Assembly: GCF_018326285.1 (NCBI RefSeq)
Contig: NZ_AP023362.1
Span: forward strand, 62,001 to 126,000
Origin: Mycolicibacterium sp. TY81
Lineage (GTDB): Bacteria > Actinomycetota > Actinomycetes > Mycobacteriales > Mycobacteriaceae
Reading direction: 5' to 3'
Length of the DNA: 64,000 nt
A program made the translations under genes and the position numbers. The notes under the pieces are model-generated. The model ran no database searches and was not told where the DNA came from. It saw only the letters and a program-made list of their open reading frames with translations. This document shows positions 43,720-51,452 of this stretch, piece by piece; within the stretch, counting starts at the first letter, position 1, and every line of letters begins with the position of its first letter.

Positions 43720-44103
43720 ATGCGCTACATGGGTTTGGTCATCATGGATCCCAACCAGGGTCCGCCGCCGCAGGCACTGATGGACGCGATGGAGGTCTAC
43801 GTCGGCAAGAACGCTGCCGACGGCATCTATCTGGACGGCGGTGGTCTGGGACAGGGCGAGAACCGCATCGGCTACCAGGTCCGCGCCGGCCAGATGAGCG
43901 CGACCGACGGGCCTTTCACCGAGGCCAAAGAGATCATCGGTGGGTTCGCGATGCTGGAGTACCGCAATCACGCCGAGGCCGTCGAGGGCGCCCGGTCCTT
44001 CACCGAACTGCACCGGGAGCACTGGCCTGAGTGGGAAGGCCGGGTCGAGATGCATCTGATCGAAGGCGCACCTGACCAGGAACCGGGTGCTTGTCCCCGG
44101 TAA
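43720..44103 (+). CDS. YCII/DGPF-domain protein
   Basis: 127-residue YCII-related protein beginning MRYMGLVIMDPNQGPPPQAL. It contains the DGPF signature in SATDGPFTEAKEIIGGFAML, and REHWPEWEGRVEMHLIEG at the C-terminus. DGPF proteins occur next to ECF42 sigma factors in many actinobacteria and may influence the sigma factor, although they are not classical anti-sigma factors. Its 3' end overlaps the sigma gene by 13 nt. Confidence 0.88.
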   Translation: MRYMGLVIMDPNQGPPPQALMDAMEVYVGKNAADGIYLDGGGLGQGENRIGYQVRAGQMSATDGPFTEAKEIIGGFAMLEYRNHAEAVEGARSFTELHREHWPEWEGRVEMHLIEGAPDQEPGACPR

Positions 44104-45329
44104 CTACAACCGAGGCAGTGACCGCCGCCTGGCGTGCCGAATCGGCGCGCCTCGTGGCGGCGCTGGCCCGCATGACCCGCGATATCGAACTCGCGGAGGA
44201 CGTCGCACAGGACGCGCTCGTCGCGGCGCTGGAGGAGTGGCCCGAGCGCGGAATTCCGGCCAACCCGGCCGCGTGGCTGATGACGGCGGCGAAGCGCCGC
44301 GCCATCGACCACATCCGTCGCGCCGAGACGCTGCGCCGCAAGACCGAGGAGATCGGACACCGCCTGGAGGAGGTCGATATGCCCGATTTCGCCGGGCAGG
44401 TCGACTTCATCGAGGACGACGTGCTCCGACTGATGTTCCTGACGTGCCATCCGCAGCTGGCCCCGGCGTCGCGGGCGGCGTTGACGCTGAGGTTGGTGTC
44501 AGGGTTGAGCACCGCCGAGATCGCCCGTGCCTTCCTGGTGCCGGAATCGACGATGGCACAACGGATCAGCCGGGCGAAGAAGACTCTCGTCGGCGCCGAC
44601 ATGGAACTGCCGGTGGGGGCCGAGCGCGTGGCACGCCTCGACGATGTGCTGGCCGCCATCTACCTCACCTTCAACGAGGGATATGTGGCGACCACCGGCA
44701 CGGATTGGACGCGCCCCGACCTCTGTTTCGAAGCGATCCGGCTGGCCCGCATGGTGGCCGCGATGGTGCCGGACATCCCGGATTCGCTTGGGCTGCAGGC
44801 ACTTGTCGAACTCCAAGCGTCGCGGATTCCCGCCCGTGTGGACCGTGACGGCGCGCCGGTGCTGCTGGACGATCAGGACCGGGCGCGGTGGGATCACCTG
44901 CTGCGCCGCCGTGGGTTGCAGGTGCTGGCCCGCGCCGAGCAGCTCGCCGAGGCTGGTGCGCCCGTCGGGACCTACTTCTTGCAGGCGGCCATCGCTGCGT
45001 GCCATGCGCGCGCGATCAGGGTCGAGGACACCGATTGGCAGCGGATCGCGGACCTGTACGACGTCCTGGCGGTCGCCGCGCCGGGCCCCGTCGTGGAGGT
45101 GAACCGCGCCGTGGCACATGGGCGTGCCTACGGGGCAGCGGCGGGGCTGGCGGTGCTCGACGCGCTCGGGCCCGATCCGCTGCCCCGATCACCGCTGCCG
45201 CATGCGGTGCGCGGCGATCTGTTGGAGCGTCTGGACCGAGTCGCCGAGGCGTCGGCGGCGTTCACACGTGCCGCCGAACTCAGCACCAATGACGCCGAGC
45301 GCGCGTTGCTGCGCCGTCGGGCTGAATGA
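44091..45329 (+). CDS. ECF42-type RNA polymerase sigma factor
   Basis: 412-residue ECF sigma factor with an extended C-terminus. Region 2 is seen in ARMTRDIELAEDVAQDALVA and AWLMTAAKRRAIDHIRRAET. Region 4 is LRLVSGLSTAEIARAFLVPE followed by STMAQRISRAKKTL. The remaining ~200 residues are helical and TPR-like (AAIYLTFNEGYVATTG; GDLLERLDRVAEASAAFTRA), the feature that defines ECF42. TTG at 44091 is 8 nt behind AGGAA; GTG at 44118 is an alternative. No separate anti-sigma gene is present, so the C-terminal domain may do the regulation. Confidence 0.87.
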   Translation: MSPVTTTEAVTAAWRAESARLVAALARMTRDIELAEDVAQDALVAALEEWPERGIPANPAAWLMTAAKRRAIDHIRRAETLRRKTEEIGHRLEEVDMPDFAGQVDFIEDDVLRLMFLTCHPQLAPASRAALTLRLVSGLSTAEIARAFLVPESTMAQRISRAKKTLVGADMELPVGAERVARLDDVLAAIYLTFNEGYVATTGTDWTRPDLCFEAIRLARMVAAMVPDIPDSLGLQALVELQASRIPARVDRDGAPVLLDDQDRARWDHLLRRRGLQVLARAEQLAEAGAPVGTYFLQAAIAACHARAIRVEDTDWQRIADLYDVLAVAAPGPVVEVNRAVAHGRAYGAAAGLAVLDALGPDPLPRSPLPHAVRGDLLERLDRVAEASAAFTRAAELSTNDAERALLRRRAE

Positions 45330-46440: not shown

Positions 46441-47337
46441 ATGTCCACGCTCACATCCACAGCCGTTCCTGTCGAAATGACGGCCACCGAAACAGGTTTC
46501 CTCCGGCGCAATGGTCCCGATGGTGCCCGAGTCGCGTATCAGACCTGGGGGCGGCGACGTCCGGGTGCGTCATGCGGCGATGTCCTGCTCGTTCACGGAT
46601 CGTTGCAGTCCTCGAAAGTATGGTCCAAGCACGGCTACGTGGCGCAGTTGGCGCAGCGCTACCGGGTCATCACCATTGATGTGCGTGGCCACGGGCGCAG
46701 CGATAAGCCCGAACACCCCGCCGGGTACGACATTCAGGCTTCGGTGCGCGACGTGTGCGCACTGCTCGACCACCTCGGGATCACTCAGACGCATTACCTG
46801 GGGTACTCGCTGGGAGGTCGCATCGGTTTGACCCTGGCGGCGGTCGCGCCGGAACGGCTCGCGTCTCTGGTGGTCGCCGGCTCGTCGTCCCGGCCGCAAC
46901 GCGGTGCGGTCAACGTGGTGATGTTCCCCGATGCCATTGCGGTGACGGAGAAGTGGGGCGTCGAGGGATTCGTGCGGGGCTGGCAGGAGCATCGCGGTAC
47001 GACGATGGGCTCGGGATTTCGCGCCACGGTCGATGCCCTCGGCGCGCGGGGGCTCGTCGCCTTGATGCGGCAGTGGGATGCCGAACCCGGGGTTGCTGAG
47101 GACGTGCTGGCACAGGTCCAGACGCCGTCGCTGTTCTTCGCTGGTTCCCGAGACATGTTGCGATTGGCTGATTCCCGCCATGCCGCGGCACTGATGCCGC
47201 GCGCCTATTTCACGCTGCTCGAGGGCGCCGACCACGGGCAGACCATCGCGATGCGTGACCGCATTCTAGACCGGGCCGAGGCATTCTTCCGCTTGGCAGA
47301 ATTCCCGGATATCGAGAAGCTCAGCGCCGTCGGTTGA
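46441..47337 (+). CDS. Alpha/beta-fold hydrolase
   Basis: 298-residue soluble hydrolase. VLLVHGSLQSSKVW forms the oxyanion-side HG motif. THYLGYSLGGRIGLTLAA is the nucleophile elbow with catalytic Ser. LFFAGSRDMLRL gives the acid strand, and EGADHGQTIAMRD contains the catalytic His. It resembles epoxide-hydrolase/haloperoxidase-like esterases; the substrate cannot be told. It is convergent with the membrane-protein gene and ends 1 nt from it. Confidence 0.85.
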   Translation: MSTLTSTAVPVEMTATETGFLRRNGPDGARVAYQTWGRRRPGASCGDVLLVHGSLQSSKVWSKHGYVAQLAQRYRVITIDVRGHGRSDKPEHPAGYDIQASVRDVCALLDHLGITQTHYLGYSLGGRIGLTLAAVAPERLASLVVAGSSSRPQRGAVNVVMFPDAIAVTEKWGVEGFVRGWQEHRGTTMGSGFRATVDALGARGLVALMRQWDAEPGVAEDVLAQVQTPSLFFAGSRDMLRLADSRHAAALMPRAYFTLLEGADHGQTIAMRDRILDRAEAFFRLAEFPDIEKLSAVG

Positions 47338-47338
47338 T

Positions 47339-48481
47339 TCACTGCCGCGAGATCGCCGGTGCCCGCAGCTCGCGCGAGACCTCGAGGAGCCAGCTGAGTT
47401 CGTTGGTCGGCTCGGTTCCCCACGGTTCACCGGCGATCTGGCCATGCGAATCGCCGACCGGAATCTGCCTGGTGCGCTGATGTTCAATGGCGGTGCGGAT
47501 TTGTTGCGCCGCTGAGGTTTTTGCGGGGTCATTGCAGACATAAGGACGGATGGCGCTGAGTCCGTCGCGGATTTCGACGATGCGGCGGTACAGCCGATAG
47601 TCGTGATCGCCGATTGGGGCCCGAGGCGGCGCGAGAGCGATGTGTGAATTGCCTTCGTAGAGCGCGGTCCACAGCGGCTCCAGTTGCCGGTGCCACCGGT
47701 AGGTCTGTACGCGGCGGACTGCTGCGCGGGCCAGTTGGGAAAAGGACGGTCCCGCAAGACCTATGGCGATCAGCACCTGCCCCACCGCGGCGACGAATGG
47801 TGCCAGGTGCTGCCAGGACATACTGCGGTTGGTGAGCAGGCCGTAGATGGCCGAATCCGCACGCAGCAGGCAGAAGACGAGACACAGCGCGGCTCCGGCG
47901 GCGGTGAGCAGCAGACTGCGCCGCAGCCAGGCCACCTCGTGGTAGCGGGCGTACTGCAGGCACCGCACGATAATGATCACTGCGCCAAGGGCATACGTGC
48001 CCAGGTACAGCAGCATGTAGGTGACCCAGACGGGTTCGCCTCCGTGCGCGGCGTAGAAATCTACGGGGAGTTCGGCCTCCGGTGCGGCGATCCAGCAGAT
48101 GATCAACGCGACCGCCGCCAGGCAGGCCAGGACGATCCACAGGCGCAATCGGCGATAGGCGCGGCGGCCGGACTCGCCCCAGAACGTGATGACCGCGAGG
48201 ACACACGCAGTCCACGCCATGCCCCCGGTCAGGCTCAGGATGAGTCGGCAGATGTTGTGCACCCCGATCGCCCGGTCCAGCCATGCCGACACGCTCGGAA
48301 TGGAAAGTGTGACCGCAATTCCTTTGAACAGGAACGACATCAGCAGCGCTATGGACGCGGGCGGCCGCACGGGGGACCGGCTGATGGCCAGGGCCACCAC
48401 GACGACGGCGCCCCACATGAACGCTGCGGAGACTGCATAACTGAAGGCCGTGTTCTCGAGCATTTGGGCCACCGAAGACAT
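47339..48481 (-). CDS. Polytopic membrane protein (MAB_1171c-like)
   Basis: 380-residue protein with about seven TM helices in the first 250 residues (SYAVSAAFMWGAVVVVALAI, LWIVLACLAAVALIICWIA and others). A soluble tail of about 130 residues rich in Arg and Trp follows (YRWHRQLEPLWTALYEGNSH). It fits the MAB_1171c-like family of actinobacterial membrane proteins, for which no activity is established as far as I know. The ATG at 48481 overlaps the ImmA/IrrE stop by 1 nt. It is the third gene of the XRE-ImmA-membrane operon. Confidence 0.8.
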   Translation of the reverse strand: MSSVAQMLENTAFSYAVSAAFMWGAVVVVALAISRSPVRPPASIALLMSFLFKGIAVTLSIPSVSAWLDRAIGVHNICRLILSLTGGMAWTACVLAVITFWGESGRRAYRRLRLWIVLACLAAVALIICWIAAPEAELPVDFYAAHGGEPVWVTYMLLYLGTYALGAVIIIVRCLQYARYHEVAWLRRSLLLTAAGAALCLVFCLLRADSAIYGLLTNRSMSWQHLAPFVAAVGQVLIAIGLAGPSFSQLARAAVRRVQTYRWHRQLEPLWTALYEGNSHIALAPPRAPIGDHDYRLYRRIVEIRDGLSAIRPYVCNDPAKTSAAQQIRTAIEHQRTRQIPVGDSHGQIAGEPWGTEPTNELSWLLEVSRELRAPAISRQ

Positions 48482-48999
48482 CACGGCCTCGCTGAATTGC
48501 CCTCGAGTCTCAGCGACGCGAGAACGCGTCCCAAGTTGGCGTTCGATAGCGAGACGGTTTGCGGTGCACCGCGTCTGACCCGTTGCCCCATGATGGAGGC
48601 GAGTGTTTCGGCCTCGATCTCCTGGCGGTCCAGGTAGTTCTCGCGGCGCAGCACTTCGGCCGGGCCGGTTGGGCCGGCGGCGGAGTGGCCGCACAGCACG
48701 TGGCTGAGCTCGTGCAGGATGATGTGCTCGCGGTGCATCGTGGTGGTCTCGCTGTCGAAGACCACGTAGTCGGTGGGGCCGGTGCGCACCAACATGCCGT
48801 GCACACCGCTGCCCGACAAGCGATACGGCAGCAGCTGGATGTCACGTCCGCTGATCGTGCTGGCGATCACGCGGATGTCGTCGACCGTGGTGAGCTTGTC
48901 CAGCCCCAAAGCCACCAGCTTGCGTGTGCAGTCACGGTGGATCGCCTTGAGCTCGCGCGTCGATCGCGGAACTGTTGCTGCGCCGCACGACGCGTCCAT
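48481..48999 (-). CDS. ImmA/IrrE-family zinc metallopeptidase
   Basis: 172-residue protein with the zinc protease motif HELSH in REHIILHELSHVLCGH, and a downstream Glu in RQEIEAETLASIMGQ that could be the third metal ligand. ImmA/IrrE peptidases cleave partner XRE repressors to induce regulated genes. The N-terminal part (DKLTTVDDIRVIASTISGRD) is typical. It starts 2 nt after the XRE gene, so the obvious partner and probable substrate is that regulator. Confidence 0.88.
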   Translation of the reverse strand: MDASCGAATVPRSTRELKAIHRDCTRKLVALGLDKLTTVDDIRVIASTISGRDIQLLPYRLSGSGVHGMLVRTGPTDYVVFDSETTTMHREHIILHELSHVLCGHSAAGPTGPAEVLRRENYLDRQEIEAETLASIMGQRVRRGAPQTVSLSNANLGRVLASLRLEGNSARP

Positions 49000-49001
49000 G
49001 A

Positions 49002-49478
49002 CTACCGTTCGGCTTTCGTGGGGGCTATGGTCGGCAGGCCCTGCAGCGCGCGCACGTGATCCAGCACGGCGGCAACGGTTTCCAGGCTCTCCTTGTTGAG
49101 GCCGATGGCGCGCAACGCAATCAGTTCGACATCGTCGCGCACGGATTCATCGAGTGCGCCGAGCCGCTCGTCGAGTGAATGCGACCGCACCGGGTCGGTG
49201 ATGGTCGACAACGGCACCTGAAAGAAGTCGGCCAACGCACCGAGCAGGTCGATGCCGGGGCGCGCCCGCTTGCCGGTGCGCAGCGCGGAGAGATAAGCGC
49301 CGCCGACCTTGATTTCGGGATGGGCCTTCTTGAGGGCGGTCGCGACTTCTTCGTTGGTCCACATCCGGCCGTCGGGACGCCGATGGGCGTCGAAGAGCGC
49401 GTTGATGCGCTCAGCGAGGCTGTCGCCCGCGTCGTGTGCATCGGGCTGCCGGTTCGGTGTGGTCGGCGAAGTCGCCAT
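49002..49478 (-). CDS. EspR-like XRE transcriptional regulator
   Basis: 158-residue regulator. The DNA-binding part LAERINALFDAHRRPDGRMW continues into NEEVATALKKAHPEIKVGGA and YLSALRTGKRARPG. This closely parallels EspR of M. tuberculosis as I remember it (RLNRLFD ... YLSQLRSGNRTNPS). The C-terminal helix RDDVELIALRAIGLNKESLE and AVLDHVRAL also resembles the EspR dimerisation domain. It heads the operon with the ImmA/IrrE peptidase and is divergent from a tRNA gene. Confidence 0.83.
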   Translation of the reverse strand: MATSPTTPNRQPDAHDAGDSLAERINALFDAHRRPDGRMWTNEEVATALKKAHPEIKVGGAYLSALRTGKRARPGIDLLGALADFFQVPLSTITDPVRSHSLDERLGALDESVRDDVELIALRAIGLNKESLETVAAVLDHVRALQGLPTIAPTKAER

Positions 49479-49513
49479 CTCCCCAGTGAAGCATCGATAT
49501 CAGCAGGCCTCAA

Positions 49514-49554
49514 CTCGTAGACGAGTGTTCTCGTGCAATTCAACTTGTGGTTGA
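49514..49554 (-). promoter_or_regulatory. Dyads in promoter region of EspR-like operon
   Basis: CTCGTAGACGAG (49514-49525) is a palindrome with two 5-bp arms. TCAAC-TTGTG-GTTGA (49540-49554) is a second. Both lie 36-76 bp before the EspR-like start, where autoregulation would act. Binding is inferred. Confidence 0.35.
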
Positions 49555-49636
49555 TCTCGCGATCTCGGCCGGACCGCTGCGTACGGTCGGACTGGCGGGC
49601 GCTACCGTCATGGCGGCGCCGGTTGACTCGGTGCCC

Positions 49637-49710
49637 GCCCCCATAGCCCAATTGGCAGAGGCAGCGGACTTAAAATCCGCCAAGTGTCGGTTCGAGTCCG
49701 ACTGGGGGCA
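49637..49710 (+). tRNA. tRNA with anticodon UAA (Leu by anticodon), class I shape
   Basis: 74-nt cloverleaf. The acceptor GCCCCCA pairs with TGGGGGC; the discriminator is A. The anticodon stem GCGGA/TCCGC encloses loop CTTAAAA, giving anticodon UAA (codon UUA). The T arm reads GTCGG-TTCGAGT-CCGAC. The variable region is only 5 nt (CAAGT), whereas bacterial tRNA-Leu normally has a long variable arm. The following bases are CCC, so CCA is not encoded. Structure is clear; amino-acid identity is less certain. Confidence 0.8.
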
Positions 49711-49841
49711 CCCACACATTGCCTGCCCTGGTTGCATCACTCCACCTCCCTGAGCGACCTACCTCAGAAACGAGTAGCGCGGTACTCGTGATGGCCGCGC
49801 GCTGTCGCGTGATGCTTCCTCGTGAGAGGAGGTGGGCCGCC

Positions 49842-51452
49842 ATGGGTGCGCTACTTCCGCGCCGCCACGCGAGTGTGCCGGCCCTCGGCTGCGCGATCGC
49901 GTTGGCGATCCTGTTCGGGGGCGTCGGCGTGGTGTTCGCCGACACGGGGTCGACACCGACACCGGCCGCGCCCACAACGACCGCTTCGCCCCCGCTGAAG
50001 GCGTTACCTCCGGTGATCGCGGCACCCGCGCCGGCCGCCGACTCAGCCACCCTCACGCTTGCGCCATCGCACGGCGGCTCGGGAACTCAGGTCACGGCCA
50101 CCATCACAGGCTTCGGTTACTGCCTGGACTCCCCACACCTGCTCTGGGACGGCGGGCCGCTGTCCGCCGGCAGCGATCTGACGTTCACGGTGCCGGACAG
50201 TCCGGCCGGTGCGCACCGGGTGACCGCAGTGTGCAGACTCCTGGATGGGGCCCGCACGGTCGCCCCGGCGTCGTTCACGATCGATGTGACCGAGAAGCCC
50301 ACCCTCACACTGGAACCCGGCAAAGGGCCCGCCGGCTCGCAGGTGACGGCTACTCCCAAAGGCTTCGGGATGTGTGTCGACGCTCCGCGTCTCCAGTGGG
50401 ACGGCCAGCCTTTGACTGCCAAGGCCGTAGACCCCGCCGTCGGCAGTCTGGCGTTCACGGTTCCGGATGGCCCGGCAACCGGACACACCGTCACAGCGGT
50501 ATGCGGGTCCCTGCGCAAATTGCCAGTGTCGGCATCTGCGCCCTTCACAGTGGTCGAAACCCCGAAGCCCACTTTGACTTTGAGCACCCCGAAGGGAACG
50601 GCAGGATCACAAGTGACGGCGACGGGTACGGGTTTCGCCTGCCCGGACAGCGGCGACGTGCAGTTGTTCTGGGACGGGGACAAGTCACCGTCGACCAAAG
50701 CCACGCCTTTCACTTTCCGTGTCCCGTTCACCGTTCCCGCGTCAGCGTCCGTTGGCGAGTACACGGTGCTGGCCGCCTGCGCCGACGATCCCGACGTCGC
50801 GGCCAGTCAGCAGTTCACCGTCGTCAGCCCGGTGACGAACCAGGGAGCCGCGGCGGCGTCGATCTCGCTCGACCCCACGCAAGGGCATGGGGGAGATGCG
50901 GTGCTCATCGTCGGCTCGCAGTTCCTCTGTGCCGACCACGAGCGGACGGTGACGCTGTCGTGGGATGGCGCCCCGCCCCGATTTGAGGTGGCTCTCGACG
51001 GGAACGGCCACTTCGCGACATGGTTTGCCGTCCCATCCGATGCCGCAGTGGGCAGTCACACAGTGCGTGCCTCGTGCGCGGATGGATCGGCCTGGGACAC
51101 TGGGGATTTCGCCATTGTGGCCGTAGGTCTTCCGGTGCCACCGCCAGCCACGCCCCCGACGGTGCCACCGCCTCCGATTATCCCGTCGCAGACGCATGAG
51201 TGGTGGCCGCTCGTCCTGGTCGCCGCGGTCCTTGCGGTGTTGCTGCTGGCCGCGGCCGTCCACTTCGGCCGGCGCGCACTTCGGCCCCCGCGGGTCCAGG
51301 TGGTCACGCGACCCGGTGGTCCTGCCACTGTCACATTGCGTGCGACGCCGGCGGCCGGCGAGACGACGCTCGCCATCCGCGTGGCGGTGCATTCCAAGCC
51401 TGATGTCGTGACCTTGAGAGGGGTGGATGATGATCGCATCCGCGTTGACTGA
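49842..51452 (+). CDS. Ig-repeat, membrane-anchored surface protein
   Basis: 536-residue protein. A signal or first TM segment (ALGCAIALAILFGGVGVVFA) is followed by a Pro/Thr-rich linker. Four Ig-like repeats of 80-100 residues come next, each with a GxxV-x-A/V-x-GF-x-C start and an AVC/ASC end (TLAPSHGGSGTQVTATITGF; TLEPGKGPAGSQVTATPKGF; TLSTPKGTAGSQVTATGTGF; SLDPTQGHGGDAVLIVGSQF). The Cys pairs suggest one disulfide per repeat. A Pro-rich hinge, a TM helix (WWPLVLVAAVLAVLLLAAAV) and a ~55-residue cytoplasmic tail follow. GAGAGGAGG precedes the ATG. Role unknown; adhesion-like architecture. Confidence 0.78.
   Translation: MGALLPRRHASVPALGCAIALAILFGGVGVVFADTGSTPTPAAPTTTASPPLKALPPVIAAPAPAADSATLTLAPSHGGSGTQVTATITGFGYCLDSPHLLWDGGPLSAGSDLTFTVPDSPAGAHRVTAVCRLLDGARTVAPASFTIDVTEKPTLTLEPGKGPAGSQVTATPKGFGMCVDAPRLQWDGQPLTAKAVDPAVGSLAFTVPDGPATGHTVTAVCGSLRKLPVSASAPFTVVETPKPTLTLSTPKGTAGSQVTATGTGFACPDSGDVQLFWDGDKSPSTKATPFTFRVPFTVPASASVGEYTVLAACADDPDVAASQQFTVVSPVTNQGAAAASISLDPTQGHGGDAVLIVGSQFLCADHERTVTLSWDGAPPRFEVALDGNGHFATWFAVPSDAAVGSHTVRASCADGSAWDTGDFAIVAVGLPVPPPATPPTVPPPPIIPSQTHEWWPLVLVAAVLAVLLLAAAVHFGRRALRPPRVQVVTRPGGPATVTLRATPAAGETTLAIRVAVHSKPDVVTLRGVDDDRIRVD

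Follow-up and report, generated by a model that had tools for sequence, protein, structure and literature searches.

What does an operon do that joins an EspR-like regulator to an IrrE-type protease and a membrane protein of several helices? Such an operon lies in a 64,000-nucleotide stretch of Mycolicibacterium sp. TY81 (contig NZ_AP023362.1, positions 62,001 to 126,000; hereafter the window), for which an earlier note proposed a membrane-signalled proteolytic switch. We consider that there is an even chance that the operon is a membrane-gated proteolytic switch. All three genes are on the minus strand: a helix-turn-helix (HTH) regulator of the EspR family (158 residues, 49002..49478), a soluble zinc metalloprotease of IrrE/ImmA type (172 residues, 48481..48999) and a membrane protein of the MAB_1171c family (380 residues, 47339..48481). 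The open frames agree with the close packing that the note had described, with 2 nucleotides (49000-49001) separating the regulator and protease genes and a 1-nucleotide overlap (TGATG) at 48481 between the protease and membrane genes.

The regulator matches PDB chains of EspR (4ndw, E 6.7e-13, 52 bits; query residues 14-148) at 33% identity. The homology extends over 129-135 residues and, as expected for a member of the wider EspR family, runs across both the HTH and the C-terminal half, where DESVRDDVELIALRAIGLNKES aligns with EspR 92-113. The likeness to EspR that had been claimed for this protein is therefore confirmed, although the gene is not the espR orthologue: it scores 55 bits, against 283 (self) and 223 (PDB EspR) for the genome's true espR at C1:4795347. 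Judged by its sequence, the regulator is a distant relative of EspR, not EspR. A phylogenetic tree of the HTH proteins, made to test the descent of EspR from such a triple, left the deep forks unresolved.

The protease carries the motifs HELSH and EIEAE, that is, HExxH with a downstream glutamate, and H96, E97, H100, E127, E129 and E131 are invariant across 48 aligned rows. It has no hydrophobic segment, and its structural model shows an IrrE-like fold, aligning best with IrrE. As its score against Pfam PF06114 (Peptidase M78) is 14.5 bits, under the gathering cut-off of 22, we name it IrrE-type by fold and motif and do not count it as a Pfam M78 member. The membrane protein scores 285.4 bits against NF042915 (MAB_1171c_fam, cut-off 100) and 75 bits against DUF6545 (cut-off 24.4), the latter match forming a tail at residues 258-373. 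Hydropathy gives seven hydrophobic segments, in agreement with the seven helices proposed earlier, and the loop charges predict an N-out/C-in topology that would place the DUF6545 tail in the cytosol.

We then asked how constant this company is, using 396 actinobacterial genomes, the NF042915 family cut-off and a reading of all the resulting neighbourhoods with profiles built iteratively at E 1e-4 inside these loci. The family has 38 matches in 21 genomes (49 genomes match at E 0.001). A protease gene is in the same cluster as the membrane gene for 34 of the 38 matches: 31 times immediately upstream in the same orientation (gap -11 to 122 nucleotides by profile edge; L231 by coordinates) and 3 times elsewhere in the cluster, next to two second copies of tandem membrane genes and in one altered order. 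No protease was found beside the other 4, one of which is a fragment. The link between protease and membrane protein exceeds chance. In 12 of the 38 the gene immediately before the protease encodes an EspR-type HTH, and in 2 more such an HTH precedes a membrane gene that has no protease. The pair is thus the core and the HTH a frequent third part, so that the expected co-occurrence of all three genes holds well for protease and membrane protein and more weakly for the regulator. Protease and membrane protein are a widespread actinobacterial pair.

Among 35 EspR-type loci (31 from the EspR match list or the TY81 genome, 4 added as known operon carriers), membrane-family genes lie beside the HTH gene in 22 and the HTH stands alone in 13. 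Same-strand neighbours including a protease account for 18 of these 22; one protease is located just beyond the stretch, and one locus has broken genes. Two M. abscessus-like genomes (L252:190-3387, L253:49-3387) have an EspR paralogue (46-47%) convergent with two or three membrane-family genes in a row.

Next we examined the true espR, and found a membrane gene and a protease gene convergent with it in the TY81 genome. Both score under the curated cut-offs (NF042915 34.5 against 100, DUF6545 20 against 24.4 and M78 17.3 against 22 bits), and profile-profile comparison places the two in the family (98.6%, E 5e-16 for the membrane protein; 99.4%, E 7e-22 for the protease). In named genomes, both genes are present in the same convergent order at 79 of 80 espR loci, which are the best 80 of 275 and hence biased to close relatives; all 79 proteases carry HELGH, and at the 80th locus the contig stops directly after espR. 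In a genus sample of 98 genomes, EspR is found in all 98 and the pair beside espR in 52, made up of 29 of 30 in one subset (one protease, beyond the short stretch, was found genome-wide) and 23 of 68 in the other. When the whole genomes of this sample are searched, exactly these 52 yield the espR-type membrane protein, always with the best match beside espR; in one genome a weak second match adjoins an EspR paralogue. The protease is found at 71% or more in these 52 and no others, and weaker protease matches occur in 11 further genomes. In other genera, 15 of 20 espR-homologue loci, hand-picked from 49 rows at 49-55% identity, have the pair inside an 8-kb stretch, some convergent and some co-directional. 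In one genome (G409, L228:3583-7129) espR is in two pieces about 1.4 kb apart, adjoining an intact-looking pair.

If the pair acts on EspR, its presence might be visible in EspR itself. We compared EspR variability in 50 pair-bearing and 46 pair-less species. Over the first 60 residues variation is small with and without the pair (residues 1-30, 0.12 versus 0.09 bits; 31-60, 0.19 versus 0.13), whereas further on the pair-less proteins vary far more (residues 61-90, 0.09 versus 0.35; 91-132, 0.45 versus 1.00). In 92 full-length rows, the differences at residues 70-113 come to 4.9% within the pair species, 7.1% between the M. abscessus-like (n=3) and the other pair species, and 26% within the pair-less species; the same three comparisons give 50%, 56% and 42% at four-fold sites and 5.3%, 9.2% and 3.9% at residues 4-65. 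At residues 103-110, the 46 pair species show 2 forms, with AARTVGLS in 45 of them, and the 46 pair-less species show 31, while the DNA-recognition segment at 40-50 has a single form in both; PDB EspR reads AQRAHGLP at 103-110. Furthermore, in hand-picked rows a four-position pattern (103 A/S/T, 105 R, 108 G/E/N/D/A, 109 L/M) is present in 29 of 31 triple HTHs and 11 of 11 HTHs with a convergent pair; among HTHs that stand alone, 6 of 12 paralogues and 3 of 6 espR orthologues have it. Dimerisation of EspR is mediated by its C-terminal domain (PMC3315491). Residues 103-110 are within this dimerisation half, the half in which IrrE cuts DdrO.

From the observed anatomy, fold, association and constraint we infer the following course of sensing, contact, cleavage and output. 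A dimer of the EspR-family HTH would bind its own promoter and probably others too. The seven-helix protein would sense something at the envelope, and its cytosolic DUF6545 tail would control the soluble IrrE-type protease. By analogy with IrrE/DdrO, the active protease would cleave the C-terminal dimerisation half of the HTH close to the residues that align with EspR 103-110, and cleavage would end DNA binding. A membrane-signalled proteolytic switch of this kind fits both the gene anatomy and the footprint seen in EspR sequences. With a divergent protease and membrane copy beside true EspR in many mycobacteria, EspR is probably subject to this mechanism as well, or was in the past.

Switches made of an HTH protein and an IrrE-type protease are known in Deinococcus, in integrative and conjugative elements (ICEs) and in operons of the cyclic-oligonucleotide-based anti-phage signalling system (CBASS), with signals that are intracellular. 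The operon resembles IrrE(PprI)/DdrO of Deinococcus in having an HTH with a C-terminal dimerisation domain and an IrrE-fold protease. In the 129-residue DdrO, IrrE cleaves the bond between Leu106 and Arg107, within the C-terminal dimerisation domain, and DdrO thereby loses both dimerisation and DNA binding (PMC8072749; the cleavage-site loop is also described in PMC10904395). IrrE(PprI) carries a GAF-like domain, and its signal is believed to be intracellular zinc or single-stranded DNA (PMC10904395, PMC8072749). The window protease, in contrast, is a short domain with a seven-helix protein as constant partner. Adjacent HTH and M78-type protease genes are likewise found in ImmR/ImmA of ICEs and CapH/CapP of CBASS, for which we know of no membrane partner; the window operon has one, and this protein has no match in phage records. 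BlaR1/BlaI also combines membrane sensor, metalloprotease and repressor, with the protease inside the BlaR1 membrane chain. The window protease is instead separate, soluble and of another fold, and a BlaR1/MecR1-type receptor protease was therefore rejected. In function the operon would amount to an IrrE/DdrO system given an external sensor, or to a BlaR1/BlaI system divided between two proteins; it is a member of neither. Its closest likenesses are EspR, with a homologous HTH and a pair of the same kind, convergent at espR and part of one operon in the window, and what we infer to be MAB_1171c and its neighbours in the M. abscessus-like loci L270-L272, which carry the same triple with a membrane protein 64% identical. 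In the open-access literature, judged mostly by titles, we found no description of this operon or of a link between protease, membrane protein and EspR.

Several observations weigh against the proteolytic switch. Hydropathy across 62 family frames gives seven helices in 29 and six in 23, and the model of the membrane protein is poor (pTM 0.38), too weak for a fold search. On the espR tree the pair label takes two changes; the footprint therefore depends chiefly on a single loss of the pair, and some other change in the pair-less clade might account for it. In other genera, five espR-homologue loci that have no pair nearby keep the segment (RAFDLSEES), and count against a simple rule of pair loss followed by drift; a one-protease search of these five genomes found none in three and a 31% match in two. 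EspR is also nearly unchanged in G397, a genome without the pair, which fits a recent loss of the pair without proving it. Finally, the HTH is not obligatory: 22 of the 38 family matches have a protease that no EspR-type HTH immediately precedes, and outside the genus most family members have no such HTH adjoining the pair. One of the 22 has an EspR-type HTH nearby on the opposite strand; for the other 21 (20 loci) inspection of the same-strand upstream frames, without a scan of other profiles, revealed no obvious HTH.

These 22 matches are also what speaks for a different account, in which protease and membrane protein are a working unit acting on another protein and the HTH only autoregulates the operon. 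A further pair of this kind is found on the plasmid-like C2 (278 kb) of the TY81 genome (L011:3765-5806 / L012:4945-5497), where no adjoining HTH was found; C2 also holds the remains of another membrane-family gene (L011/L012). Such a unit would not by itself account for the pair remaining beside espR through changes of orientation, nor for the far stronger constraint on the C-terminal half of EspR where the pair exists, and we regard it as unlikely. Still less probable is a stress- or phage-triggered module like CapH/CapP, in which expression would be freed by HTH cleavage and the seven-helix protein would act as effector. A PADLOC scan of the three operon proteins gave capP at 19 bits, only a weak generic HTH match for the regulator and no match for the membrane protein, and retention by 52 of the 98 genomes of the genus sets the espR-linked pair apart from typical accessory defence genes. 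That the membrane protein is a transporter whose expression the HTH and protease merely adjust is the least probable account. The 'putative transporter' name given to NF042915 by NCBIfam, the treatment of MAB_1171c as a transporter gene in PMC8707978 and the M. abscessus MAB_1171c knock-out described there, with biofilm at about half and lowered minimum inhibitory concentrations (MICs; clarithromycin (CLA) 0.5 versus 2, cefoxitin (FOX) 4 versus 16), are met by an N-out/C-in topology and conserved soluble tail that fit a receptor equally, by the same values in other 'MIC' mutants (CLA 0.5 in 9 of 12, FOX 4 in 6 of 12) and by the lack of a transport assay in the sections of that paper drawn on here.

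Upstream of the HTH gene, a putative operator (49510..49554, strand not assigned) consists of three TCAAC/GTTGA half-sites at 49510-49514, 49540-49544 and 49550-49554. They align with half-sites in three relatives (L270-L272, two of which are near-identical), and their conservation in the promoter region suggests that the HTH autoregulates the operon through these candidate sites. A sigma-70 promoter scan of 47200-49700 found no promoter. The palindrome ACGAGTGTTCTCGT at 49521, matched once in the window against 0.06 expected, was rejected because the relatives lack it.

The same relatives bear on the origin of the operon. A recent transfer at tRNA-Leu is not supported, because L270-L272 carry the triple in a similar neighbourhood, which shares an alpha/beta hydrolase gene (L271, 70%), the gene block at 24.2-29.5 kb of the window and a tRNA-Leu(taa) 2-7 kb off (L272 was covered by tRNA and profile searches only). 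The window has about 17 kb more than the relatives between this block and the hydrolase gene, and L271 differs in one extra gene (L271:6810-7682, no window match) between hydrolase and operon. The operon is found at 64% or more in only 4 of the 98 genus genomes. A viral origin was rejected, as the membrane protein has no match in phage records; in viral contigs, a single-protein query that covered close relatives only, in one scan of eight, gave 2 stretches matching a pattern, neither of which was confirmed. Elsewhere in the window, a YCII-domain gene adjoins an extracytoplasmic function (ECF) sigma factor with a DUF6596 tail (43720-45329), and a frame of 577 residues that contains repeated segments and matches no Pfam family at E 0.001 lies just past tRNA-Leu (49719-51452).

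We tentatively propose, at somewhat less than even confidence, that EspR is by origin a substrate of a membrane-gated IrrE-type protease. Under this hypothesis, the pair was lost in a large clade, the C-terminal cleavage region drifted and EspR was freed of proteolytic control, and the window operon would be a second, co-directional copy of the old switch. The pairing of an IrrE-type protease with a seven-helix protein across many actinobacteria would provide a short route from the envelope to the promoter. It also offers a direct, testable proposal for the control of EspR where the pair is retained, and for the large differences in its C-terminal half elsewhere.
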